A DNA stretch of 64,000 bases from Conexibacter woesei Iso977N (GTDB taxonomy: Bacteria > Actinomycetota > Thermoleophilia > Solirubrobacterales > Solirubrobacteraceae): NCBI RefSeq assembly GCF_000424625.1, contig NZ_AUKG01000002.1:806001-870000 (forward strand). The letters run 5' to 3'. The position numbers were made by a program, and so were the translations under genes. Shown piece after piece: positions 23,818 through 35,910 of the stretch. The stretch's first letter is position 1. Each line of letters opens with the position of its first letter. A model generated the notes under the pieces. That model had not been told where the DNA came from. It was given only the letters and a program-made list of their open reading frames with translations, and did no database searches.

Positions 23818-24369
23818 TCACTCGCTCCGCGGTTCCGTTCCGTCGGTCGGGATGCCCGTTGACCTCACTGCGTCGGAGACTGCCGCCACGAACTCGGCGC
23901 CCACCTTCTGTAGCGCCCCGCGCGGCAGCACGGCATGACGCACTACCCACGTCTCAGGGTCGCCTCGCTGCACACGCCAGAGCAGCCACTGCTCGTCGCC
24001 GGGCGGCTCGAACAGAATCAGGGTCACTTCGTCGAACGCCGACATCCCCAGCCGGTTGATGTGATACCGACCGAAGGCGCCAAGCGTGACGTCTGCGTCG
24101 TCACCGAAGACATCGTCGTAGACGACGTCGAACGCCTCCTCGGGGCTCAAGCCGTCGAGTCGATGCTCCCATCGTTCTACGGGCTCAGCGACGAACGACT
24201 CCCACCACGCGACGATGCCCCGGACCATCGCCAGGTCGTCCCAGTCCCCGATCCCCTCTCCTTGGACCACGAGCCGGAAGTGCCCGAACCACCTCCCCGG
24301 ATCGATCGGCTCTTCGAGTTCGGCTTCGATCGCCACGACTTCAGGGTCACCCACGAGGAATCGCATCAT
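23818..24369 (-). CDS. Immunity-like protein (Imm42-like)
   Basis: A 183-residue acidic protein. Its N terminus (MMRFLVGDPEVVAIEAELEE then GHFRLVVQGEGIGDWDDLAM) follows the pattern I know for polymorphic-toxin immunity family Imm42. It has no signal or membrane segment and would act in the cytosol. It is the last of three immunity-type genes downstream of the giant Rhs gene on the same strand. It may be an orphan left from an earlier toxin tail. Family assignment is from memory of motifs and was not checked. Confidence 0.65.
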   Translation of the reverse strand: MMRFLVGDPEVVAIEAELEEPIDPGRWFGHFRLVVQGEGIGDWDDLAMVRGIVAWWESFVAEPVERWEHRLDGLSPEEAFDVVYDDVFGDDADVTLGAFGRYHINRLGMSAFDEVTLILFEPPGDEQWLLWRVQRGDPETWVVRHAVLPRGALQKVGAEFVAAVSDAVRSTGIPTDGTEPRSE

Positions 24370-24474: not shown

Positions 24475-24831
24475 TCAGCAGCCTGATCGCACGAACTCGT
24501 CGACCACAAGTCTCACGTGCTCACGATTCACGATGTAGCGCGCTTCGACGTCGCCTGCTTGTCCTCCGGCGGTGACTGACACGTTCCCCGTCGCCGTCGG
24601 ATCGCCCACGAGCATCGAGTAGACACCACTTTTGCCGCCGAACGTGACGACGTACTCACCGCCCGAACCGCCCCCGACGCACAGTTCTGGGAAATCGGCC
24701 TCACCTTGCAGGACGAGCAACGTGCGTCGATTGCCATCGAGCTTGTCGACAGCGCCCAGCACGTCAGCGATCGACGGCTCGACCAAGTCGACGCCGTGCT
24801 CGTAGTTCCGCGACCACTCGTCGGCGTGCAT
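24475..24831 (-). CDS. Immunity-like protein (Imm1-like)
   Basis: A 118-residue protein ending in a pattern like immunity family Imm1: LCVGGGSGGEYVVTFGG, a short strand set, SVTAGGQAGDVEARYIV, then a C-terminal helix LVVDEFVRSGC. The ATG at 24829-24831 gives MHADEWSRNYEHG; the frame is open further upstream through non-coding-looking sequence. It belongs to the run of small same-strand genes behind the Rhs gene, so immunity to a secreted nuclease or deaminase-type tail is a fair guess. The cognate toxin is not obvious in the window. Confidence 0.6.
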   Translation of the reverse strand: MHADEWSRNYEHGVDLVEPSIADVLGAVDKLDGNRRTLLVLQGEADFPELCVGGGSGGEYVVTFGGKSGVYSMLVGDPTATGNVSVTAGGQAGDVEARYIVNREHVRLVVDEFVRSGC

Positions 24832-24967: not shown

Positions 24968-25317
24968 CTACATGCCAGCTCCGCGCGCTGCCGGCTCGCT
25001 CCTTCTACGGGCAGCAGCGGGCACGTCCCAAGCCGCATCGAGAATCTCATCGAAGTGGGCGACAAACTATTCGGAATATGGCTCTAGGCCGAGAACCCCA
25101 CCGTGCTCGCGGTACCACTCATACCCGGGCGGTACGTCGGGTGTGTCGGTCCGGGCGCGATACTCGTCGAGGATGGCAGTGTTGTGATCTAGCCCGTAGG
25201 GGTGCGCAGGCCCCAGTACGGCCGGGACCTCACGATGAGGTCGACGCTGTGCTGGGGGAGCGCGAGCAGCCCGTCGCGGGCGTCGCAGCAGAGGACGCGA
25301 AAATCACCCGGGTGAGA
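24968..25317 (-). pseudogene. Remnant of a site-specific DNA methyltransferase
   Basis: Two minus-strand frames together give a recognisable methyltransferase piece. The first reads RVLCCDARDGLLALPQHSVD then LIVRSRPYWGLR, matching the family line DLIVTSPPYWGLR with one Pro lost. It stops at about 25195. In the next frame follow LDEYRARTDTPDVPPGYEWY and GVLGLEPYSE, a TAG stop, then FVAHFDEILDAAW, like the GLEP...FV.H..E.L segment after the catalytic motif. A frameshift, a stop codon and absent ends mark it as decayed. It lies between two immunity-type genes. Confidence 0.6.
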
Positions 25318-25540
25318 CGGGCGCTGAGAGAAGGTCGTCTACGAGCAATGACGTCACGTGCGTATTCGGGCGGCCGCGGCCGAGACCATCAAGGCCGACG
25401 GGACGACGTTCGATCTCTCGTCGCCTTAGCGATGAGCATGACAACCAAGAAGCGGCGCATCGCCCGCAAGATCGATCCGTCTGGTGGCGCCTTGAGAGCG
25501 AGCACTTCTGTGTCGCGCGAACGACGCGCAAACTGTGGAC

Positions 25541-25978
25541 TTAGTGATCGGGCGTGTGCGCGGGGTCGGTCGGATCGAGATCATGGATCTCCACCGTGCA
25601 CTCGCGTCCGGCGACGTACTGGTGTGACTTCCTGACGTCCTCCTCCGTCCACGGTCGCTCGTTCCAGGGGGAAAGATCTATGAAAATGCCATCGGCGCGG
25701 AAGTGGATGCCGATCCCGAGTGACAAGACCACATTCGATACGCGAGGGGACTCGCCAAAGAGGAACGACGTTACGCCAGACACTTTGAAGGCAAGCAGTG
25801 CCCAGGTGCCGTCGTCAGCCCTCGCCTCCACGCGGATCCGTGCGACCGGCTCAGTCGCGCGTCCGTCGAGGTGTTCCAGCGTGAACCCGACGACCAGACC
25901 GTCGTAGAAGTCGTAGAAACGCTTCAGAAGAGCGTCTGCGTCGGGCTGATCGGCGAGCCGAAGTTCCTCTGATGTCAC
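25541..25978 (-). CDS. Candidate cognate immunity protein of the Rhs toxin tail
   Basis: A 145-residue acidic protein whose GTG start (25976-25978) overlaps the Rhs stop as GTGA. A TTG at 25993 would add five residues. Translation is thus coupled to the toxin-bearing tail, the standard place for the cognate immunity gene. The sequence alternates strands and short helices (LLKRFYDFYDGLVVGFTLEH then VVLSLGIGIHFRADGIFIDL) with no signal peptide, so it would act inside the producer. I do not recognise a named Imm family. Codon use is less G+C-biased than in the flanking chromosome. Confidence 0.7.
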   Translation of the reverse strand: MTSEELRLADQPDADALLKRFYDFYDGLVVGFTLEHLDGRATEPVARIRVEARADDGTWALLAFKVSGVTSFLFGESPRVSNVVLSLGIGIHFRADGIFIDLSPWNERPWTEEDVRKSHQYVAGRECTVEIHDLDPTDPAHTPDH

Positions 25979-28900
25979 GGCGTCTGCTTCCAATCGTCAG
26001 GAACGTTGCTGGGGTCTACGTGCGGCGCAGTTGGTCCATGGCCTAGGCCAGGTTTCCCTGGCGGAAACACGTGAGCGTGCCCGGGCGGCGCCTCCCCATG
26101 CCTCTTGAAGTCCACATGGGCAATGACATCGCCATTGCTGTCGTAGACGGCATTCTGGACGGGCGCGCCGTTTGGGGCTAGCTGCGTGTAGATCGAGTCC
26201 GGAGTCGCACCAGTTGTCCACGGTCGTTCCGTGCCCGAGAATCGTGCATACCGTGTTCCCTTTCTGGCTTTGCGGATCGCTGCGGCTAGACGCGAAGCTC
26301 CGATGCCGGCGCCTCGACCGATGAGGGCAGAGGTCGCAGCGTACCCAAGGCACCCAGCCGGCCCGCGCGCCTGGCAGTCATGGATTGCGCCGGATGCCGC
26401 CGCCCCCGGATTATTGACCGACCATACGAACGCACTGGCGGTCTGGCGCGGATACAGAAAGAGGTCCGCGGTGTCGGTCGTGGCGTCAACTGCTCCCGTC
26501 GCTGCGTCGTTGACGTCCTTCGGGTCGGTATGGAGAAACCGTCCGAGGGGGTCGCTGAGCTTCTTTAGCGGGTCGCCAAGCCAGCCGCCACCACCGCCAC
26601 CGCCGCCACCAGTGCTGGACCCCGGGGATACGGGTTCGCCGTCGGTGGGAACGACACCGTAGCTCGGCTTAGGCGGTCTGGGCAGCGCGTTGTCCTGGGC
26701 CTGCCTGACCCTCTCCGATTCATTCGAGTACTGGCTCCAACCCCTGTTCCTCTGCGAGGCGTAGTGATTCTCGGTCTGGTTAATCTGCTGCTGGCTGCCG
26801 CCATTGCCATGTCCGTGCGGCAGGCCGGCGCGCCCTCCTTGATTGCTGCACGGCCCGTCGTCGCAGACGTGTCCGTCGAACTCGACGTTGTCCACCGGGT
26901 TGCCGCCCGCGAAGGCGTAGCGGTTCTGGGTCAGGGGGTCGCCGACGAGGGTGAGGTCGGCGTTGGATGCCTCGTAGGTGTCCTGCTGCAGGAAGCGGCC
27001 GACGTCGGGCCGGTAGTCGCGGGCCTGCATGTCGTAGGTCTTGATCGCCGCGTCGTAGTAGAAGCCTTCGAAGCGGAACGGGTTGGCCCTGGCGTCGGCT
27101 GAGCCGGCGCTGTCGGGCGTCTCGCCGGACCCTGTGCCGGAGGTGTCGAGCTCGCCGAACGGGTCGTAGGTGTACCTGTCGCCGGACCCGACGGTGCCGT
27201 CGGAGCCTTCCAGGCCCATGACCGACCCGTTGGAGTCCTTGGCGTACACCTTGGTCCGCACGGTCGAGGAGCCGGCGGCCTTCTCCAGCACGTCCAGGCG
27301 CTCGCCGGTGCCGTCGTAGTCGAAGGTGTTGCGCCCGCCGTCGTCGGTCGTCTCGCGCGACATGCTCGGCGTCGTGCCGACGTAGCTGAGGTCGCGGGTG
27401 ACGTCGGTGCCGGTCGCGGGCCTCAGCGTCTTCTTGTCGCGCCGGTCCAGCGGGTCGTAGGTGACGACCTGGTGGTCGTCGCTGCCCTTGCCGCGCGTGT
27501 CGAGCAGGCGGTCGAACTCGTCGTAGCAGTAGTACGTCGTGTTCGCGTCGGCCCGGTCGGGCAGCGCCGAGCAGGTCGGCGTCGACGCCCTGCCGCCGTT
27601 GCTGTTCTGGGCACCGCAGGTGGCGGCGCTCTGGATCGACGTGACCGAGCCGAAGTCGTTGTAGCAGTAGTACGACGTCAACGGGCTGTTGGAGGCGCCC
27701 GACTGCGACACCACCGTCTTCTTGAGCTTCTCGCCCGAGAACGTGTAGTCGGTGATCGTGTCGCCCAGGCCGCCTGCGGCGTGGTAGGTGTCGACCGTGT
27801 GCGTCACCGAACCGCTCGGCGACATCGTGTAGGTCACCGTCCCCGTCCGGCTCACCGTCCCGCCGCGCCTCCACTGCGTCAGCTGGTCGCGGGCGTTGTA
27901 CTGGTAGTCGCCGCGCTCGTCGGTCGTGCGGTTGCCGCGCGCGTCGTAGCCGTAATCGATCTGGTAGCTGGAGCCCGCCGACGGATCGCGGCGGCGCGAG
28001 CTCGGCTCTCCGTACTCGTCGTACAGCGTGCTCACCAGCGTGTTGTTGGCGTTGCGCCGGGTCTCGCGCTGGCCGCCCGGGTGGTAGGTGCTGCGCACGC
28101 AGCGGGTGCCGCTCGGCGGGCCGGGGCTCGCGCCCAGGTCGCAGTTGTCGGCCGTCGGCTCGGGGCTGACGTTCGTCGGCTCCCACGTCGCCGAGGTCAG
28201 CTCCTCGTCGGCGCGGTTGTACTTGAACCGCGCGTACTTGCGCAGGCTCCCGGTCTGGTCGTCCATGGCGCCGGTCGCCGTGCTTGTCAGATGCCCGTCG
28301 ACCTTGCGCGACGTGACGTTGCCGGCCGCGTCGTAGTCGAACCAGCTGTCCTTGCCGGTCGACCACGTCTCGTTGACCGACTTCTCACGCTCGGCGGCGT
28401 CACGCACGATCACCGTGTCGTGCCCGGTGTTGTCCACGTCGCGGATCGCGGTCAGCGAGTGGTTGCCGTTGTAGTAGTAGGAGTAGGTCCGGGTGGTCGT
28501 CGTGTCGTCGGTGTCGCTGCCGCTCGTCGACACCTGGACCTTGCGACCCACGCGGCTCTTCAGCGTCCCGTTGGGCCAGAACTCGCGCGTGACCTTGCCG
28601 CCGACGGTCGCGGTCGTGGCGTTGTAGCGCGACGTGCGCCACAGCGTCTGCAACCCGTGCTCGTCGTAGTCATAGACCGCGTCACGGTTCTCGATGGCGG
28701 TCGTGTTGGGCGTGTCGCCCTCGCGGAAGTCCTTCGCGCCCTTGATCCAGCCGTTGGCGAAGTAGTCGTAGCCCGTGTGCGGATGGGCGACGGTGGCGCC
28801 CCTCGTGTACGCCGTGGTCGCGTCCTGCAGGCGGCCGCGCTGGTCGTACGTGTAGTCCATCTTGTCGCGGTCGTCGCCGGAGCTGCTGCGCGGCAGCCAG

Positions 28901-31900
28901 ACCGCGGTCGCCAGCCCGTCCTCGCCGCCCGGGCTGTCGACGTCGTACTGGCGCAGGGTGGCGCCCATCGTCGCGTTGGCGATGTTGCCGTCCGGGTCGC
29001 TCGTCGACGCGTAGTCGTCGAGGTTCTTGGGCCTGGTCGGGACGCCGTCGACCACGCCGTTGGTCGTGTCGACGCCCGACGGGTTGACGATACGGCGCAG
29101 GTTCCCGTTGGGGTCGAACTCCCACATGGACGTCCGGCTGCCGCTCAGGAACGCGCCGCCGGCGTCCATCGGCCGCGACGTCTTGCGGTCGACGTTGCCG
29201 CGCCCGTCGTAGTCGTAGTCGGTGACCCGCGTCACGTCGCCGCCACCGAAGATCCGCCTGGCGCCCGGCTCCCGCGACTGCTTGAGCGTGTCGTCGTCGT
29301 AGTAGGTGTAGGTGCTGGTCGGGCGCATCTCGCCGGCGGTGTCGTCGCTGACCACCGCGCCCTGCTCCTGGACCAGCCGGTCCGCCGCGTCGTAGGTGCG
29401 CAGCGTCTTCCAGTTGGGCTGGTCGGCCGCCGTGGCGGTGAACCCGCGCGGTGGCGTGACCGCCGTGACGTTGTCGTCGGCGTCGTACCTCCACCCGGTC
29501 GCCTCGCCCGCGGCGTTGCTCTGCACCAGCAGGCGGTCCAGCGAGTCGTACAGGGAGTGCTCGACGAAGCTGCTGGCCACCGAGTCGGGCTGGCGCGGCA
29601 GGCCTTTGGTCAGGATGTTGTCGTTGGGGTCGTAGGTGTAGGTCGTCGGCTCGCGGTGCGAGGACTGCCCGATCGTGTCCGCCGACCCCGGAGCCTCGCT
29701 CGTCGTCAGCCGGTCGTAGCCGTCATAGGTGTTGGTCGTGTACCAGTCGGCGTTGCCGAGCTGGCGCTGGGTCGTGACGTCGCCGTCGAGGTCGTAGTCG
29801 TAGCGCTGGGCGATCAACCGCTGGCCGGCCGGGAACGCTCCGGTCCCGCCGCTGTTGGCCGGGTCGTTGGCGCGATCGCTCGGCGCCCCGATGTCGAACG
29901 GCTGGGTCGTGCCGACCACGCGGCCGGCCGGGTCGTAGTCGATCCGCGAGCGGTCGCCGGCCACGTCGAGAACCGACGTGACGCGACCCTCGTCGTCGTA
30001 GCTGAACGTCGTCAGCCCGCGCTTGGGCAGCCAGCTCGGCGGGTCGTTGGCGTCGACCTGGCCGAACTTGCCGTGCTCCTGCCCGGACGGGTGACCGGCG
30101 GTCGGCGTGTCGGTGTCGGTCAGCGGCGTGTCGCGCTCCGACAGCGACGGGGCACCGGCGGCGGGACCACCGTCGCCCCAGCTCAGCTGCCACCACGAGG
30201 GCCGCGTCGTCGACACGAGCTCGCCCGTGTCCTGGAACCTGTTGGTCATCACGCGCTGGCGCGGGTCGGAGATGTGCTCGGCGTCGCCGACGGCGTTGCG
30301 GTCGTAGGTGACCTTCCAGCCCGCGAACTCGGCGTCGGTCCGCCCGTACTGGCCCTGCGCGAAGGGCACCGTGCGCGTGAGCAGATCACCGCCGGCGTCG
30401 TAGGTGTAGTTCTCGGTGAAGTAGGTGTAGGGGGTGCTCCTCGTCCCGGTCCCGTCGGTCACGCCGCGCGGCGAGGTCATCGAGACGACCGCCCCGTCGG
30501 CCCGGCGCTGCTCGACGGTCCGGTGGCCGAGCGGATCGACCGACTGCACGATCTGGTCGCGGTGGTCGTAGACGTAGGTGTCGGCCACGTCGCCGCTGAA
30601 CCCGGCCGGCCGGTCGTTGAAGTTGCGCGGCAGGCGATGCGTGACCGCGTTGCCGTCGGCGTCGTAGTCGTACTCGTCGACCTTCGGTGTCTGGCTCGGG
30701 TCGCCGGGCGCGGGCTGCTCGGTCTGGCGCGTCAGCTCGTCGGCGCGGTCGTAGACCCGCGCGAACCGCAGGTTCGCCGCCGTCGCGGTGGCGTCGATCG
30801 CTGCCTGCTCGGTGCGGGCGTCGCTGTAGTTGCCGTTGCCGTCCGGGTCGGCGTTGCGCTTCGCGTCGATCTCGCCGACCACGTTGCCGCGCGGATCCAG
30901 CGCCAGCGAGTGGATCTTGCGATCCGGCGTCTCACCGGGAGCGTGCACGACCTCGGCGACGACGCGGCCGGCGTCGTCGCGCCGCCACTCCGTCGTGTGC
31001 GGCAGGTGCAGCGTCGTGATCGTCGCCGGGATCGACGCCCGGCCGAGCGGATCGGTCCGTGCGACGAGCAGGTCGGTGGGGTCGTACTGGAACGTCGTCG
31101 TCTCGTCGCGCGACGCGTAGCCGCTCGCCGTGCGCGACCAGGCGCGCTGGGTGACGGTCAGCGGCTGGTCGGTCCTCGAGAACGTCGCCGTCGTGGTGCG
31201 GCCGGTGCCCGCGTTGGTGTCGGTCAGCTGGTTGCCGTTGCGGTCGTAGGTCCAGCTCTCGGTGATGTACCTGTTGTTGGCCGAGTCCTTGGGCGTGACC
31301 TGCTGGATGACGCGGTCGAACGCGTCGTAGGTGAAGGCGGTCGTGAACCTCGCGTTCGGCGTCGCCGCCGAGGGTGCGGACTGCGCGTCGGGGTTGCGCG
31401 GATCGCTGACCGACAGCAGGTTGCCGACCGCGTCGTAGCGGTACAGCCAGCGGTGCTCGGCGGCGTGCGCCGAGCCCGGGTGGGCGGCCGGGACCGGGAA
31501 TCCCGAGGCGATGTCGTTGCCCTTGGGGTCGACCATCGTCTTCGGCATGCCGTTGTCGTCGAAGTCGCCGTAGGTCGTGACGTCGCCGACCTCGTCGGTC
31601 TCGCTCTTGACCAGGCCCTTCGGGCAGTCGGTGCCGTTGCAGTACGTCGCGCTCGTCGGGTCGCTGCCGTCGGCGTCCGTCACAGCTGTGACGTTGCCGG
31701 TCGCGGTGTCGACGGTGTACTTGGTCCCGACGTGCGCGCCGCCCTGCAGGACGCGCGGCTGGTCGACCTCGGTGAGGTCGGCGACGAACCCGTCGGCCGG
31801 ATCGCCGGAAGGCCGCAGCGACGACTGACCGGCGCTGATCGCGTACCTCAGCGTCGTCGTGCGCGCGGTGTCGGTGTTGGTCGTGCCGTCCGGGTAGCTC

Positions 31901-34900
31901 GTCTGCGACGCCAGCCGCCCGCTGACCGGCTCGTAGGTCATGGTCTTGACCGCGCCCGGATCGCTGCCCCGGACACCGGTGGCGACCTCGAGCAGGTCGT
32001 TGCGGCGCGGGGACCCGTTGTCCCAGCGCAGCGCGGTCGCGTCGCCGATCGGGTCGGTGATCCTCGTCGGCCGGCCGTAGCCGTCGACGTCGCGCGTCCA
32101 GGTCTTCGAGCGCGCGTCGGTGACCGTCAGCTCGTGGGTCGCCGCGCCGTAGGCGCTGAACCCGTAGGTCGTGACGTTGTTGTTGCGGTCGGTGATCCTC
32201 TGCGGGACGAGCGCCGCGGTGTCGCCGGCCGGCGGCGTGCCGGTGCGCGTCTGGTAGGTGATCGCCGTCGCGCGGTTGCCGCCCTCGTCGGTGTCGCGGA
32301 CCTCGGTCACGGTCCTCAGCCGGTGCGACGACACGGCGTCGTCGGCCGCGAAGTAGTCGAAGGCCCAGCGCCGTGCGCGGTCGCCCGCGGGCGCCAGCGT
32401 GCCGGCGTTGGCGACCTCGACCAGCGACGTCAGGTCACCGTTGGTGTAGTCGAACGTGTACTGGCGCCCGGCGTGGTCGGTGAGCGTGGCGAGCTGCGGC
32501 GGGGCCATCAGCAGGCCGATGCCGAGGTCGGCGCTCGCCGCCCTGGTCAGCAGCGACGCCAGCGTCCTGGACCCGCCGCCGAGCGCGGTCGAGAGATCGC
32601 CGTCGAGCTGGGTCTGGTTCGCCGAGCTCCGCGACTTGTAGGACAACGTCAGGTCGTGTCCGGCGGGGTCGGTGACCTTCGTCAGCCGCAGCGTGCAGAG
32701 CTTGCCGGCGACCGCCGAGACGGTCGCACCCGCGGCCGTCTGCAGCCCCCAGCCGTTGGCGGCCGACGGCGTCCCGGAGATGCTGCCCAGCAGCGCGCTC
32801 ACGCCGCAGGCGGTCGCCGCCGAGCCCGATGCGCCGGTGAGCAGGTCGTACTTCTCGTAGGTGTAGGTGAGGTGGTTGCCGTTGCGGTCCTGGGTCTTGA
32901 TGAGGTAGCCGAGGCGGTCGAAGAAGTAGGCGACGCCGTCGGCGCGCGTCATGACCCAGGCCGGGTCGATGATCGGGTCGCCGGTCGTCGCCCAGCGGCG
33001 CAGCGTGAGGTGCACGCCGGGCGGCGCGATCCACTTCCTGTCGTCGTCGGGATCGCGCGTGAAGTGGTGCGTCGTGCCGTCGGCGTCGGTCAAGGCGATG
33101 TCGTTGCCGAGGCCGGTGGGCAGCCCGGAGACGGTGCCGTTCAGGCCGTCCCGGACGTCGGCCAGGCCGACGCCGCCGAGCGGCTCGTTCAGCCGCGTCG
33201 GGCCCGACACGCTCAGCGAGATGCCACGCCCGGCCGCGTTGTAGAGCAGGCGATCCCTCACCGAGACGCTGGCCAGCGGGTCGATCCCGCCCTGGACACC
33301 GAGACCCGGCGCGCGCTCGAGCGAGTTGTAGTCCACGTTGACGAACGTCGAGAGCCCGCGGCCGGGGTTGACGATCGGGACGTCGTGCCAGATCAGGTTC
33401 CCGTTGTCGGAGTTGACCATCAACTGGCTGCCCGAGCCGGTGTCGGTGCTGTCGTAGTCCCAGAACTTCTCCAGGCCCAGCCGGCTGGAGCCGCTGACCG
33501 GTGCGACCGGCGCGTCGTTGTAGGTGACGCGGTCGCGCGCGTCGTGGCAGTAGGTCGTGACCCTCGCGTCGGGCTGGGTGACGACGACCTTGCCGATGTC
33601 GCCGACGCTCGCCTCGCACGGAGCGGTCGGCGCCGAGTAGGCGTAGGTGGTGGTCGGGCCGGTCGTCCCGGTCGGCGTCGACGGGCGGACGATCGACGCG
33701 ACGCGGCGCGACGTCCCGTCGTAGGTCAGCAGCGCGACGCTGCTGTCCGGCGCCTGGACCTTCGTCACCCGGCCGGAGCTGTCGTAGGTGTAGGTGTAGA
33801 TCGAGCCGTCGACCGACGTCTCGGTCCTGATGTGCGCGGACGAGTCGTAGGTGAACGTCCAGTGGTGGGCGTCGGCCGGGTCGGCGATGTTGTCGAGCGT
33901 CTCGTTCTCCGTCGCCGTGCGGTCGACGTCGTAGTAGTCGCCGTGCGTGTCGGTGATCCCGCTGAGCGCGGTCGGCGACGTGTAGCCGCCCGGGTTGTAG
34001 ATGAACGTCAGGTGGTGGCCCGAGACGTCGGCCATCGACGTCAGCGAGCCGTCGGACGCGAACGTCAGGACCAGGTGCCTCCCGGGCAGCGACGGCAGGC
34101 CGTGCTTGGCGTCCAGCGTCCAGGTGCAGGCCGCGTCGTCCTGGGTGAGCGTGACGCCGGGCAGGTCGTCGGGCGTCGTGTAGGTGGTGGTCCCGCCGCT
34201 GGAGTGGGCGTCCAGGAACGGCTCGATCACGCCGTCGCCGCGGCGGAACGTCACCGAGTCGTCCTGCTGCTCGACGAGGCGGAGGTCGCGGCCGAGGCTG
34301 CCGGTGCCGCGCACGCCCATGCCGTCGACCACGGTGCCGTCGGCGAGGCTGTTGAGGTAGTGGTCGAACTCGAGGTCCAGGCCGCCGACGCCCGCGACCG
34401 ACACGTCCCTGGTCGTCAGCGCGAGGTTGCCGTTGGCGACGTTGACGGCCAGGTCCGCGCGGTTGCCGACCGTCTGCCTGGTGAAGGTGTAGGCGTCGAG
34501 CAGGCCGGTGCGCGGAGCCCACGCGACGTCGAGCTCGGGCGCGGTGATCTCCTCGGCGTCCTCGGTCGAGGAGAAGTCCTTCTCGGCGGCGATCCTCGGG
34601 CCGTCCGCGTCGGTGATCGCGACGCCGTAGTTCGGGACGGCCCTCGTGATCCACTGCTGGGTCAGCCGCGTGATCGAGAAGTCGACGTAGCCGGTGAAGC
34701 CGTTCGGGACGTTCGCGATCCCGGACTGGTCGGGGTCGTAATCGCCGCCGGGCGTCTGCCAGCTGTGGGTGGCGTCGTAGCGCGACCACGAGGCGTCGTT
34801 GGTCCAGTCGCGGCGCATGCGGTGGACGGCGAGGTCCTTGTCGGCGTCCGGGTCCGGGACGTTGGCGTGGTAGAGGTCGACGTTGCCCCAGAGCGCGACG

Positions 34901-35910
34901 GCGTCCTGCGGGATGCTGCTCGTGTCCCACTTCAGCAGCGAGTGGTGGTCGTGGTCGCCGTCGTAGCCGACCCACAGCGAGGCGCTGCAGAAGCTGGTCG
35001 TCGGGGCGTCGGAGGAGAGCGCGCAGTCCTGCGCGTCGTCCTGGAGCTCCAGCGTCGGGTCGATCGTCACCGTGCCGTGCGCCCTGACGGCGGCGGCCAG
35101 CCAGGCAGGGTCGACCGACAGCGTGACGCGCCAGCCGCCGTCCACGCGCTGCAGATCGGTCCTGACCGCGTCGGCGTCACGGGTGCCGCCGACGAGTGCG
35201 AAGGACGGCGCGAGCGTGGCGATCGTCCTGCCGTCCCTGCCGGTGACCGTGATCGTGCCGTTGTCGTCGCGGTGCGCGGTCGCGCCGTCGGAGGCGCCGA
35301 GGGCGAAGGCGTAGCGCGCCGGCGCGTGCGGGTCGTCGATCTTGATGTCCTCGCTCAGCGTCGAGGCCGAGGTGTGGTACTCGACGTCCACGCCGGGCAC
35401 GGCGTTGGTGTAGGACATGGTCGTGCCGTCGGCGCGGCCGGTGCCCTGCGCGCCTTCGAGCTGCATCGACAGCGCGCCCGCGCCGCGAGCGATCCGGATC
35501 GGCGTCGCCAGCGTCCTGGGCAGCACGGCGTTCCAGCCCTGGCCGGTCGTCGCGTAGCCACCGGAGACTGCGGCCAGCGTCGGGTCGATCAGCCGCTCCT
35601 TGCCGCTCGCGTCGCGGTAGCTCGGCGGTCGGGCGAAGACGCGGGAGACGAACGTGCCGTCGGCGCGCCGGTAGGTCCGCGACGTCGCCGTCGACATCTC
35701 GGGGACGAGCGTGGCGTCCTTGAGCAGCCTGGCGAGCCTGCCGCGCGGGGCGGGGGCGAGCGTCGCGGAGTTCACGTCCGCTGCCGTCGCGCGGTTGCGC
35801 GCACGGCCGCCGCCGAGTGCGACGATCAGCGCCGCGAGCGCCACGATCGCCACCAGTGGCACCAGCCATCGCGCACGCGTCATCCTCCGCAGACCGGCCA
35901 CAGCTCGCAT
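25975..35910 (-). CDS. Giant Rhs/YD-repeat protein with variable C-terminal toxin-like tail
   Basis: A 3311-residue surface or secreted protein. A membrane or signal segment (about 14-33) is followed by an N-terminal region with DNRLRE-like sequence (about 300-460), then dozens of YD/Rhs repeats of the Y-D-x-x-G-N type. These should form the hollow beta-barrel shell that encloses toxins in this class. The Rhs core ends near RFEGFYYDAAIKTYDMQARD and YAFAGGNPVDNVEFDGH (about residue 3014). The last 297 residues are unlike the core: a Gly-rich linker, a small hydrophobic helix region and a terminal piece with RHGEAPPGHAHVFPPGKPG, whose His residues could be catalytic or metal-binding. The tail DNA is less G+C-rich, which fits exchange of tips. 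A probable immunity gene overlaps the stop. Toxin activity is inferred. Confidence 0.92.
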   Translation of the reverse strand: MRAVAGLRRMTRARWLVPLVAIVALAALIVALGGGRARNRATAADVNSATLAPAPRGRLARLLKDATLVPEMSTATSRTYRRADGTFVSRVFARPPSYRDASGKERLIDPTLAAVSGGYATTGQGWNAVLPRTLATPIRIARGAGALSMQLEGAQGTGRADGTTMSYTNAVPGVDVEYHTSASTLSEDIKIDDPHAPARYAFALGASDGATAHRDDNGTITVTGRDGRTIATLAPSFALVGGTRDADAVRTDLQRVDGGWRVTLSVDPAWLAAAVRAHGTVTIDPTLELQDDAQDCALSSDAPTTSFCSASLWVGYDGDHDHHSLLKWDTSSIPQDAVALWGNVDLYHANVPDPDADKDLAVHRMRRDWTNDASWSRYDATHSWQTPGGDYDPDQSGIANVPNGFTGYVDFSITRLTQQWITRAVPNYGVAITDADGPRIAAEKDFSSTEDAEEITAPELDVAWAPRTGLLDAYTFTRQTVGNRADLAVNVANGNLALTTRDVSVAGVGGLDLEFDHYLNSLADGTVVDGMGVRGTGSLGRDLRLVEQQDDSVTFRRGDGVIEPFLDAHSSGGTTTYTTPDDLPGVTLTQDDAACTWTLDAKHGLPSLPGRHLVLTFASDGSLTSMADVSGHHLTFIYNPGGYTSPTALSGITDTHGDYYDVDRTATENETLDNIADPADAHHWTFTYDSSAHIRTETSVDGSIYTYTYDSSGRVTKVQAPDSSVALLTYDGTSRRVASIVRPSTPTGTTGPTTTYAYSAPTAPCEASVGDIGKVVVTQPDARVTTYCHDARDRVTYNDAPVAPVSGSSRLGLEKFWDYDSTDTGSGSQLMVNSDNGNLIWHDVPIVNPGRGLSTFVNVDYNSLERAPGLGVQGGIDPLASVSVRDRLLYNAAGRGISLSVSGPTRLNEPLGGVGLADVRDGLNGTVSGLPTGLGNDIALTDADGTTHHFTRDPDDDRKWIAPPGVHLTLRRWATTGDPIIDPAWVMTRADGVAYFFDRLGYLIKTQDRNGNHLTYTYEKYDLLTGASGSAATACGVSALLGSISGTPSAANGWGLQTAAGATVSAVAGKLCTLRLTKVTDPAGHDLTLSYKSRSSANQTQLDGDLSTALGGGSRTLASLLTRAASADLGIGLLMAPPQLATLTDHAGRQYTFDYTNGDLTSLVEVANAGTLAPAGDRARRWAFDYFAADDAVSSHRLRTVTEVRDTDEGGNRATAITYQTRTGTPPAGDTAALVPQRITDRNNNVTTYGFSAYGAATHELTVTDARSKTWTRDVDGYGRPTRITDPIGDATALRWDNGSPRRNDLLEVATGVRGSDPGAVKTMTYEPVSGRLASQTSYPDGTTNTDTARTTTLRYAISAGQSSLRPSGDPADGFVADLTEVDQPRVLQGGAHVGTKYTVDTATGNVTAVTDADGSDPTSATYCNGTDCPKGLVKSETDEVGDVTTYGDFDDNGMPKTMVDPKGNDIASGFPVPAAHPGSAHAAEHRWLYRYDAVGNLLSVSDPRNPDAQSAPSAATPNARFTTAFTYDAFDRVIQQVTPKDSANNRYITESWTYDRNGNQLTDTNAGTGRTTTATFSRTDQPLTVTQRAWSRTASGYASRDETTTFQYDPTDLLVARTDPLGRASIPATITTLHLPHTTEWRRDDAGRVVAEVVHAPGETPDRKIHSLALDPRGNVVGEIDAKRNADPDGNGNYSDARTEQAAIDATATAANLRFARVYDRADELTRQTEQPAPGDPSQTPKVDEYDYDADGNAVTHRLPRNFNDRPAGFSGDVADTYVYDHRDQIVQSVDPLGHRTVEQRRADGAVVSMTSPRGVTDGTGTRSTPYTYFTENYTYDAGGDLLTRTVPFAQGQYGRTDAEFAGWKVTYDRNAVGDAEHISDPRQRVMTNRFQDTGELVSTTRPSWWQLSWGDGGPAAGAPSLSERDTPLTDTDTPTAGHPSGQEHGKFGQVDANDPPSWLPKRGLTTFSYDDEGRVTSVLDVAGDRSRIDYDPAGRVVGTTQPFDIGAPSDRANDPANSGGTGAFPAGQRLIAQRYDYDLDGDVTTQRQLGNADWYTTNTYDGYDRLTTSEAPGSADTIGQSSHREPTTYTYDPNDNILTKGLPRQPDSVASSFVEHSLYDSLDRLLVQSNAAGEATGWRYDADDNVTAVTPPRGFTATAADQPNWKTLRTYDAADRLVQEQGAVVSDDTAGEMRPTSTYTYYDDDTLKQSREPGARRIFGGGDVTRVTDYDYDGRGNVDRKTSRPMDAGGAFLSGSRTSMWEFDPNGNLRRIVNPSGVDTTNGVVDGVPTRPKNLDDYASTSDPDGNIANATMGATLRQYDVDSPGGEDGLATAVWLPRSSSGDDRDKMDYTYDQRGRLQDATTAYTRGATVAHPHTGYDYFANGWIKGAKDFREGDTPNTTAIENRDAVYDYDEHGLQTLWRTSRYNATTATVGGKVTREFWPNGTLKSRVGRKVQVSTSGSDTDDTTTTRTYSYYYNGNHSLTAIRDVDNTGHDTVIVRDAAEREKSVNETWSTGKDSWFDYDAAGNVTSRKVDGHLTSTATGAMDDQTGSLRKYARFKYNRADEELTSATWEPTNVSPEPTADNCDLGASPGPPSGTRCVRSTYHPGGQRETRRNANNTLVSTLYDEYGEPSSRRRDPSAGSSYQIDYGYDARGNRTTDERGDYQYNARDQLTQWRRGGTVSRTGTVTYTMSPSGSVTHTVDTYHAAGGLGDTITDYTFSGEKLKKTVVSQSGASNSPLTSYYCYNDFGSVTSIQSAATCGAQNSNGGRASTPTCSALPDRADANTTYYCYDEFDRLLDTRGKGSDDHQVVTYDPLDRRDKKTLRPATGTDVTRDLSYVGTTPSMSRETTDDGGRNTFDYDGTGERLDVLEKAAGSSTVRTKVYAKDSNGSVMGLEGSDGTVGSGDRYTYDPFGELDTSGTGSGETPDSAGSADARANPFRFEGFYYDAAIKTYDMQARDYRPDVGRFLQQDTYEASNADLTLVGDPLTQNRYAFAGGNPVDNVEFDGHVCDDGPCSNQGGRAGLPHGHGNGGSQQQINQTENHYASQRNRGWSQYSNESERVRQAQDNALPRPPKPSYGVVPTDGEPVSPGSSTGGGGGGGGGWLGDPLKKLSDPLGRFLHTDPKDVNDAATGAVDATTDTADLFLYPRQTASAFVWSVNNPGAAASGAIHDCQARGPAGCLGYAATSALIGRGAGIGASRLAAAIRKARKGTRYARFSGTERPWTTGATPDSIYTQLAPNGAPVQNAVYDSNGDVIAHVDFKRHGEAPPGHAHVFPPGKPGLGHGPTAPHVDPSNVPDDWKQTP

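Follow-up and report, generated by a model that had tools for sequence, protein, structure and literature searches.

What does the giant Rhs protein encoded in this part of the Conexibacter woesei Iso977N genome carry at its C-terminus, and how was that cargo acquired? The 64,000-nucleotide stretch analysed here (the window) contains an open frame for a 3311-residue Rhs protein at positions 25975-35910, whose C-terminal tip an earlier note on this DNA had been unable to place, and which it had therefore thought might represent a new activity. Here we report that the locus very likely encodes a polymorphic toxin of the Rhs type whose tip has been exchanged, accompanied by a probable cognate immunity gene. 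Homology places the tip, with good probability, as a relative of the toxin family Ntox24 (PF15529, Bacterial toxin 24). We hold with considerable confidence that the whole is a polymorphic toxin-immunity locus, in which a Sec-exported interbacterial Rhs toxin would carry an Ntox24-like tip, probably an RNase, alongside a dedicated immunity protein.

The Rhs frame starts with ATG and occupies exactly the interval previously ascribed to it, on the minus strand, which had gone unstated; all features described below lie on that strand. Its product has the layout of an Rhs polymorphic toxin, with YD/RHS repeats (RHS_repeat, 63.2 bits; YD_repeat_2x, 42.8 bits) and an Rhs-associated core ahead of a variable tip. 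The conserved core ends at residue 3014 with the Rhs-associated core domain (residues 2915-3014, positions 26869-27168; TIGR03696 of NCBIfam, 48.4 bits), and the tail of 297 residues that follows is unlike it, as first noticed. This tail comprises a linker or pretoxin segment (residues 3015-3208, 26287-26868) and the Ntox24-like tip (residues 3209-3311, 25978-26286), the latter recognised from eight relatives, a weak PF15529 match and a mainly beta structure model. The motif RHGEAPPGHAHVFPPGKPG, previously singled out for several possibly catalytic histidines, is present near the C-terminus of the protein and contains H63, H70 and H72 of the tip (residues 3271, 3278 and 3280). Towards the other end of the protein lies a DNRLRE domain (residues 294-462, 34525-35031; NCBIfam NF033679, 67.5 bits against a cut-off of 34).

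Relatives of the tip are scattered widely. A tblastn search of 72,556 plasmid records returned two, from Rahnella victoriana (59% identity) and Caballeronia zhejiangensis (53%). A first scan of species genomes with the window tip alone had found none; a scan of 84,980 such genomes with a three-row alignment yielded seven tip loci, in a Pirellula metagenome-assembled genome (MAG), Rahnella ecdela, Pectobacterium fontis, a Puniceicoccaceae MAG, Caballeronia zhejiangensis, another Planctomycetota MAG and Pseudomonas entomophila. Loci L005 and L017 have the same sequence across tip and downstream gene and only one was kept, so that the final alignment has nine rows (the window, the plasmid-search locus L006 and the seven scan loci). 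The relatives span three named phyla, Pseudomonadota, Planctomycetota and Verrucomicrobiota, and share 42-62% identity with the window tip. Twenty-six columns are invariant in the nine tips, among them five of the six tip histidines, H63, H70, H72, H83 and H89 (hypergeometric P 0.004, a value that ignores relatedness). Neither viral contigs nor phage records held a tip relative (phage records were queried with a Rahnella tip), and a classical Ntox24 sequence likewise had no match in either.

Judged by eye, the carriers of these tips end in Rhs-core-like sequence, and L006 is annotated as Rhs. Locus L018, from a Planctomycetota MAG (tip at 2555-2875), is the exception: a HINT-like pretoxin domain, again read by eye, precedes its tip in place of an Rhs core, which suggests that the tip can move between carriers. 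Two loci, L015 and L019, begin at the end of a contig; the frame of L017 is short (169 codons) and may be an orphan tip. Together these loci form an unnamed family (Rahnella, Pectobacterium, Caballeronia, Pseudomonas entomophila, Planctomycetota, Puniceicoccaceae) that the window tip resembles in sequence and in having a homologous downstream gene, found in all eight relatives; it differs from them in being about 11 residues shorter and in its carrier, another Rhs protein of far greater size.

That downstream gene is the second component of the locus. In the window it is a 145-residue frame with a GTG start (25541-25978) that overlaps the toxin stop by 4 bases, and a homologous small gene (119-145 residues, lengths that depend on start codons picked by us) adjoins the tip in nine of nine loci. 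A profile built from the other eight downstream proteins gives the window protein 74.4 bits and 1000 shuffles 8.2 at most, and leave-one-out scores across the set range from 59.8 to 149.3 bits. This arrangement makes the gene a probable cognate immunity gene. None of the nine downstream proteins matches a Pfam immunity family, and an NCBIfam scan found no immunity family either. Imm50 (PF15594) was considered for this role and set aside: it matched none of the nine in Pfam, and hhalign to one Imm50 member scored 18.6 against 18.9 for the best of 60 shuffles. A search for Imm50 in 149 genomes of the phylum gave no match, but it gave none in the controls either, which makes it uninformative; one of the seven tip-holding genomes does have Imm50, but elsewhere in the genome. 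The structure model of the putative immunity protein (pLDDT 81.2) had no Foldseek match at E 0.001 or better. With VIA one entry stood out, 5v77_A, a protein of Neisseria gonorrhoeae that is uncharacterised (Z 8.5 over 93 of 106 residues, 3.7 Å; next rows 3.9) and on this modelled likeness may be an immunity protein too; searching for the entry's code brought up an unrelated item alone, and we treat the resemblance as a lead only.

The identity of the tip itself rests on several comparisons with Ntox24. PF15529 is the best Pfam match of the tip, and all nine tips match it at E values up to 5 (best 6e-4), with two other Pfam families matched more weakly, by three and two members. For profile comparison we assembled six Ntox24 sequences, found by searching with PF15529 and, by tblastn, with one of the sequences so obtained. 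The Ntox24 sequences used as reference in this work are mixed: L007, L020, L021, L053 and L054 score above the cut-off of Pfam, with L008 on the border (23.5 to 24) and L055 below it. L020 also contributes two tblastn relatives, L049 (Nostoc), which is annotated as type 24, and L050. The tip profile scored 28.9 against the six sequences in hhalign, above 200 column shuffles (at most 19.9) and above 150 more in a repeat (at most 17.6). Against nine Ntox24 sequences it scored 25.6 (99 shuffles, at most 17.5), and 24.6 when the window row was removed (99 shuffles, at most 16.5); in a first nine-sequence run the shuffle maxima were 17.5 with that row and 19.1 without it. An hmmsearch profile of the eight other tips found the Nostoc sequence at 22.7 bits (E 7e-6) and L020 at 13.3, the best shuffle reaching 8.7. 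Where the hhalign alignment extends far enough, read by eye, the two histidines that are invariant in Ntox24 fall opposite H63 and H70, and its tyrosine, replaced by W in two of the six Ntox24 sequences, falls opposite Y48; the pattern YD..G....VD...H......H runs through both. Because nine of nine tips match PF15529, if weakly, and no shuffle reaches the score of the profile comparison, the tip no longer appears unplaceable, and a probable remote kinship with Ntox24 takes the place of the new activity once suspected.

Structure prediction is compatible with this placement. The tip model (pLDDT 86.8) is mainly beta, with five strands and a single helix of four residues, in agreement with the all-beta fold of Ntox24. 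Sequence searches of the PDB gave weak matches to unrelated proteins only and no solved Ntox24 structure, and Foldseek of the tip model against the PDB returned nothing at E 0.001 or better. With VIA the best Z was 4.6 over 58 residues at 3.2 Å, the top rows being mostly OspA mutants; these matches, which include 8owu_C from a polymorphic toxin/immunity entry (Z 4.2 over 61 of 76 residues, 3.4 Å), are not conclusive.

A number of results weigh against this interpretation. The HMM search that had been proposed for the tip did return Ntox24, at 14.8 to 19.1 bits according to which stretch was submitted, but this lies below the gathering cut-off of 24, as do the scores of the Rahnella (18.3 bits) and Caballeronia (16.5 bits) relatives; an NCBIfam scan of the tail and tip had no match. 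Without the window row the hhalign score against the six sequences drops to 21.5 (shuffles at most 19.2) with a probability of 9%, and probabilities for tip against Ntox24 are low throughout, at 9-54%. The nine-sequence alignment covers 38 columns and ends before the histidines, and against L007 and L008 alone 10 C-terminal columns aligned and no more. In the hmmsearch, four of the six Ntox24 sequences did not rise above all shuffles, and in the reverse search shuffles were intermixed with tips. The nine loci are not independent samples (3 of 100 residues separate the two Rahnella tips), the immunity assignment rests on position and co-occurrence, the toxic activity of every family member is a prediction from sequence, and the window tip ends about 11 residues short of all eight relatives, which finish PIG[QKS]. 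Because the curated Ntox24 cut-off is not reached, we call the tip an Ntox24-like relative and not a member of the family.

What the tip does biochemically is a separate matter, and the prediction that it acts as an RNase is evenly balanced. In the available portions of a 2012 survey (PMC3482391), a table lists Ntox24 as all-beta with conserved Y, H and H while the text gives a single conserved histidine; Ntox24 versions are noted in type II toxin-antitoxin systems, and a metal-independent endoRNase activity is called "conceivable". In the accessible part of a paper on contact-dependent inhibition (CDI) in Pseudomonas, PF15529 appears as a table label, and no test of the proposed RNase activity turned up in the Ntox24 and PF15529 literature searched, as far as those sources were available. 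The window tip resembles Ntox24 in its place at the C-terminus of Rhs/HINT polymorphic toxins, its mainly beta model and the Y, H and H that align with Y48, H63 and H70. It differs in scoring below the Pfam cut-off and in its extra invariant histidines H72, H83 and H89 and conserved C-terminal block. The Ntox24 partners Imm50 and Imm53 were not recognised among the downstream proteins, a difference to which we give low weight since partners vary in such systems.

Those extra histidines feed the alternative that survives best, though we consider it unlikely: that the tip has a separate fold and chemistry, its five invariant histidines binding metal, and works as a metal-dependent nuclease or other hydrolase with a superficial likeness to Ntox24. 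H72, H83 and H89 are invariant in the nine tips and not in the Ntox24 sequences gathered, the H-x-H arrangement would suit a metal site, and the sub-threshold Ntox24 scores and the lack of a clear solved fold leave room for it. The shared YD..G....VD...H......H pattern and the profile scores above all shuffles speak for kinship with Ntox24 instead. It is, at a similarly low probability, conceivable that the nine tips make up a distinct toxin family with its own immunity family, whose five-histidine, metal-bound site would be unlike the metal-independent RNase proposed for Ntox24; such a family would cover at least Pseudomonadota, Planctomycetota and Verrucomicrobiota in addition to the lineage of the window.

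Could the short tip instead be a dead one? The residues that all eight relatives have and the window tip lacks may have been lost when the cassette was joined, leaving a decayed, inactive toxin at a locus that now provides immunity only, and the DNA downstream would fit this, with its piece of a broken methyltransferase gene and an Imm1 gene that is unrelated. Against such decay, which we think still less likely than metal chemistry, the frame is open, the residues common to the other eight tips are retained, the overlap with the immunity gene is tight and the short form is modelled with confidence. The Imm1 family gene (24475-24828; PF14430 over 24478-24828, 29.4 bits against a cut-off of 22.4) is probably not cognate to the present tip. 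We know of no link between Imm1 and this tip; the gene may for that reason be the leftover of an earlier one, and its presence nearby suggests that earlier tips occupied the locus. Beside it lies an open frame of 183 residues (23818-24369) with no Pfam or PHROG match, which could be another small immunity gene. Between 25067 and 25338, DNA methyltransferase-like pieces occur in two broken frames; the match to the PHROG DNA methyltransferase family is weak (E 0.0037) and limited to 25189-25338, a broken gene piece with no Pfam match. PADLOC found nothing, and the DNA downstream of the Rhs cassette had no match in phage records.

The history of the tip is recorded in its composition and in the tails of related proteins. 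The G+C content at third codon positions (GC3) is 0.970 over the first 3014 codons, drops to 0.742 in the linker and reaches 0.650 over the final 103 codons; of 292 overlapping windows of that length in the core, none is as low as the tip (minimum 0.903). This bears out the lower G+C content reported for the tail. Related core ends were found in 20 of 146 family genomes, the organism's own counted; not every core match was kept as a locus, and tails could be read in 27 of 29 loci, two yielding none. Core identity among the compared loci ranged from 30% to 73%. None of the 26 other tails contains the window tip, counting two cut by the stretch end (L023, L029), one identical pair (L027, L028) and one from the same genome (L045). 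In a genome of the same genus (L010), a core end 73% identical over 78 residues bears Ntox50 (67 bits). Among ten scanned tails, three have a toxin-type domain above cut-off (Ntox50 in L010, GIY-YIG in L025 and L030), three have PT-HINT below cut-off (L027, L030, L032), four have no match and one an unrelated weak match alone. The linker has one weak match to another tail on a related core (L024, 26.5% over 83 residues).

Since tails on related cores differ and the immunity-protein profile matches only the organism's own genome among 41 searched, tip and immunity gene look like a horizontally acquired cassette, in line with the recent tip exchange proposed before, and the two would have arrived jointly. 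A tip search of 299 genomes of the class gave two matches, the organism's own and G269 (E 3.1e-4); the motif is absent from the G269 frame, and we took that match for chance. A second, distant Rhs core end (L045) occurs in the same genome on the 5.4 kb contig C7, with a short tail of 87 residues. That the tail instead caps the Rhs protein structurally, with no toxic function, is highly improbable, for all that toxicity is only predicted, given that no match to a structural, non-toxic domain was found, that tails on related cores are not identical and in some cases are known toxin domains, and that tip relatives on other carriers keep the same downstream gene.

On the Ntox24-like reading, the toxin would work as follows. 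A hydrophobic segment after basic residues at the N-terminus (residues 1-44, 35779-35910, Sec signal-like by hydropathy) suggests export through Sec: the peak 19-residue hydropathy of the whole protein, 2.7, begins at residue 16 (residues 16-34), and windows above 1.6 are confined to residues 10-38. The Rhs/YD-repeat protein may then bring its tip to a neighbouring bacterium, where the roughly 100-residue tip would act as a nuclease, most likely an RNase, and kill the cell, with the invariant H3271 and H3278 (tip H63 and H70), and perhaps Y3256 (Y48), as catalytic candidates. In the producer, the protein from the overlapping gene would block the tip. As far as the source consulted in part describes them, WapA-type Sec-exported Rhs toxins of Gram-positive bacteria share the very large Rhs protein, the C-terminal toxin and, as predicted here, Sec export (PMC12704120); cell-wall binding and a sortase partner are also described there, and the likeness here is one of overall layout only.

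The finding is thus a new branch of a known kind of toxin and not a new kind. It adds a probable immunity family that Pfam and NCBIfam scans do not recognise, and, by offering a tip of about 100 residues, a gene for its probable immunity protein, nine natural variants and specific candidate residues, it makes the RNase activity proposed in 2012 directly testable.

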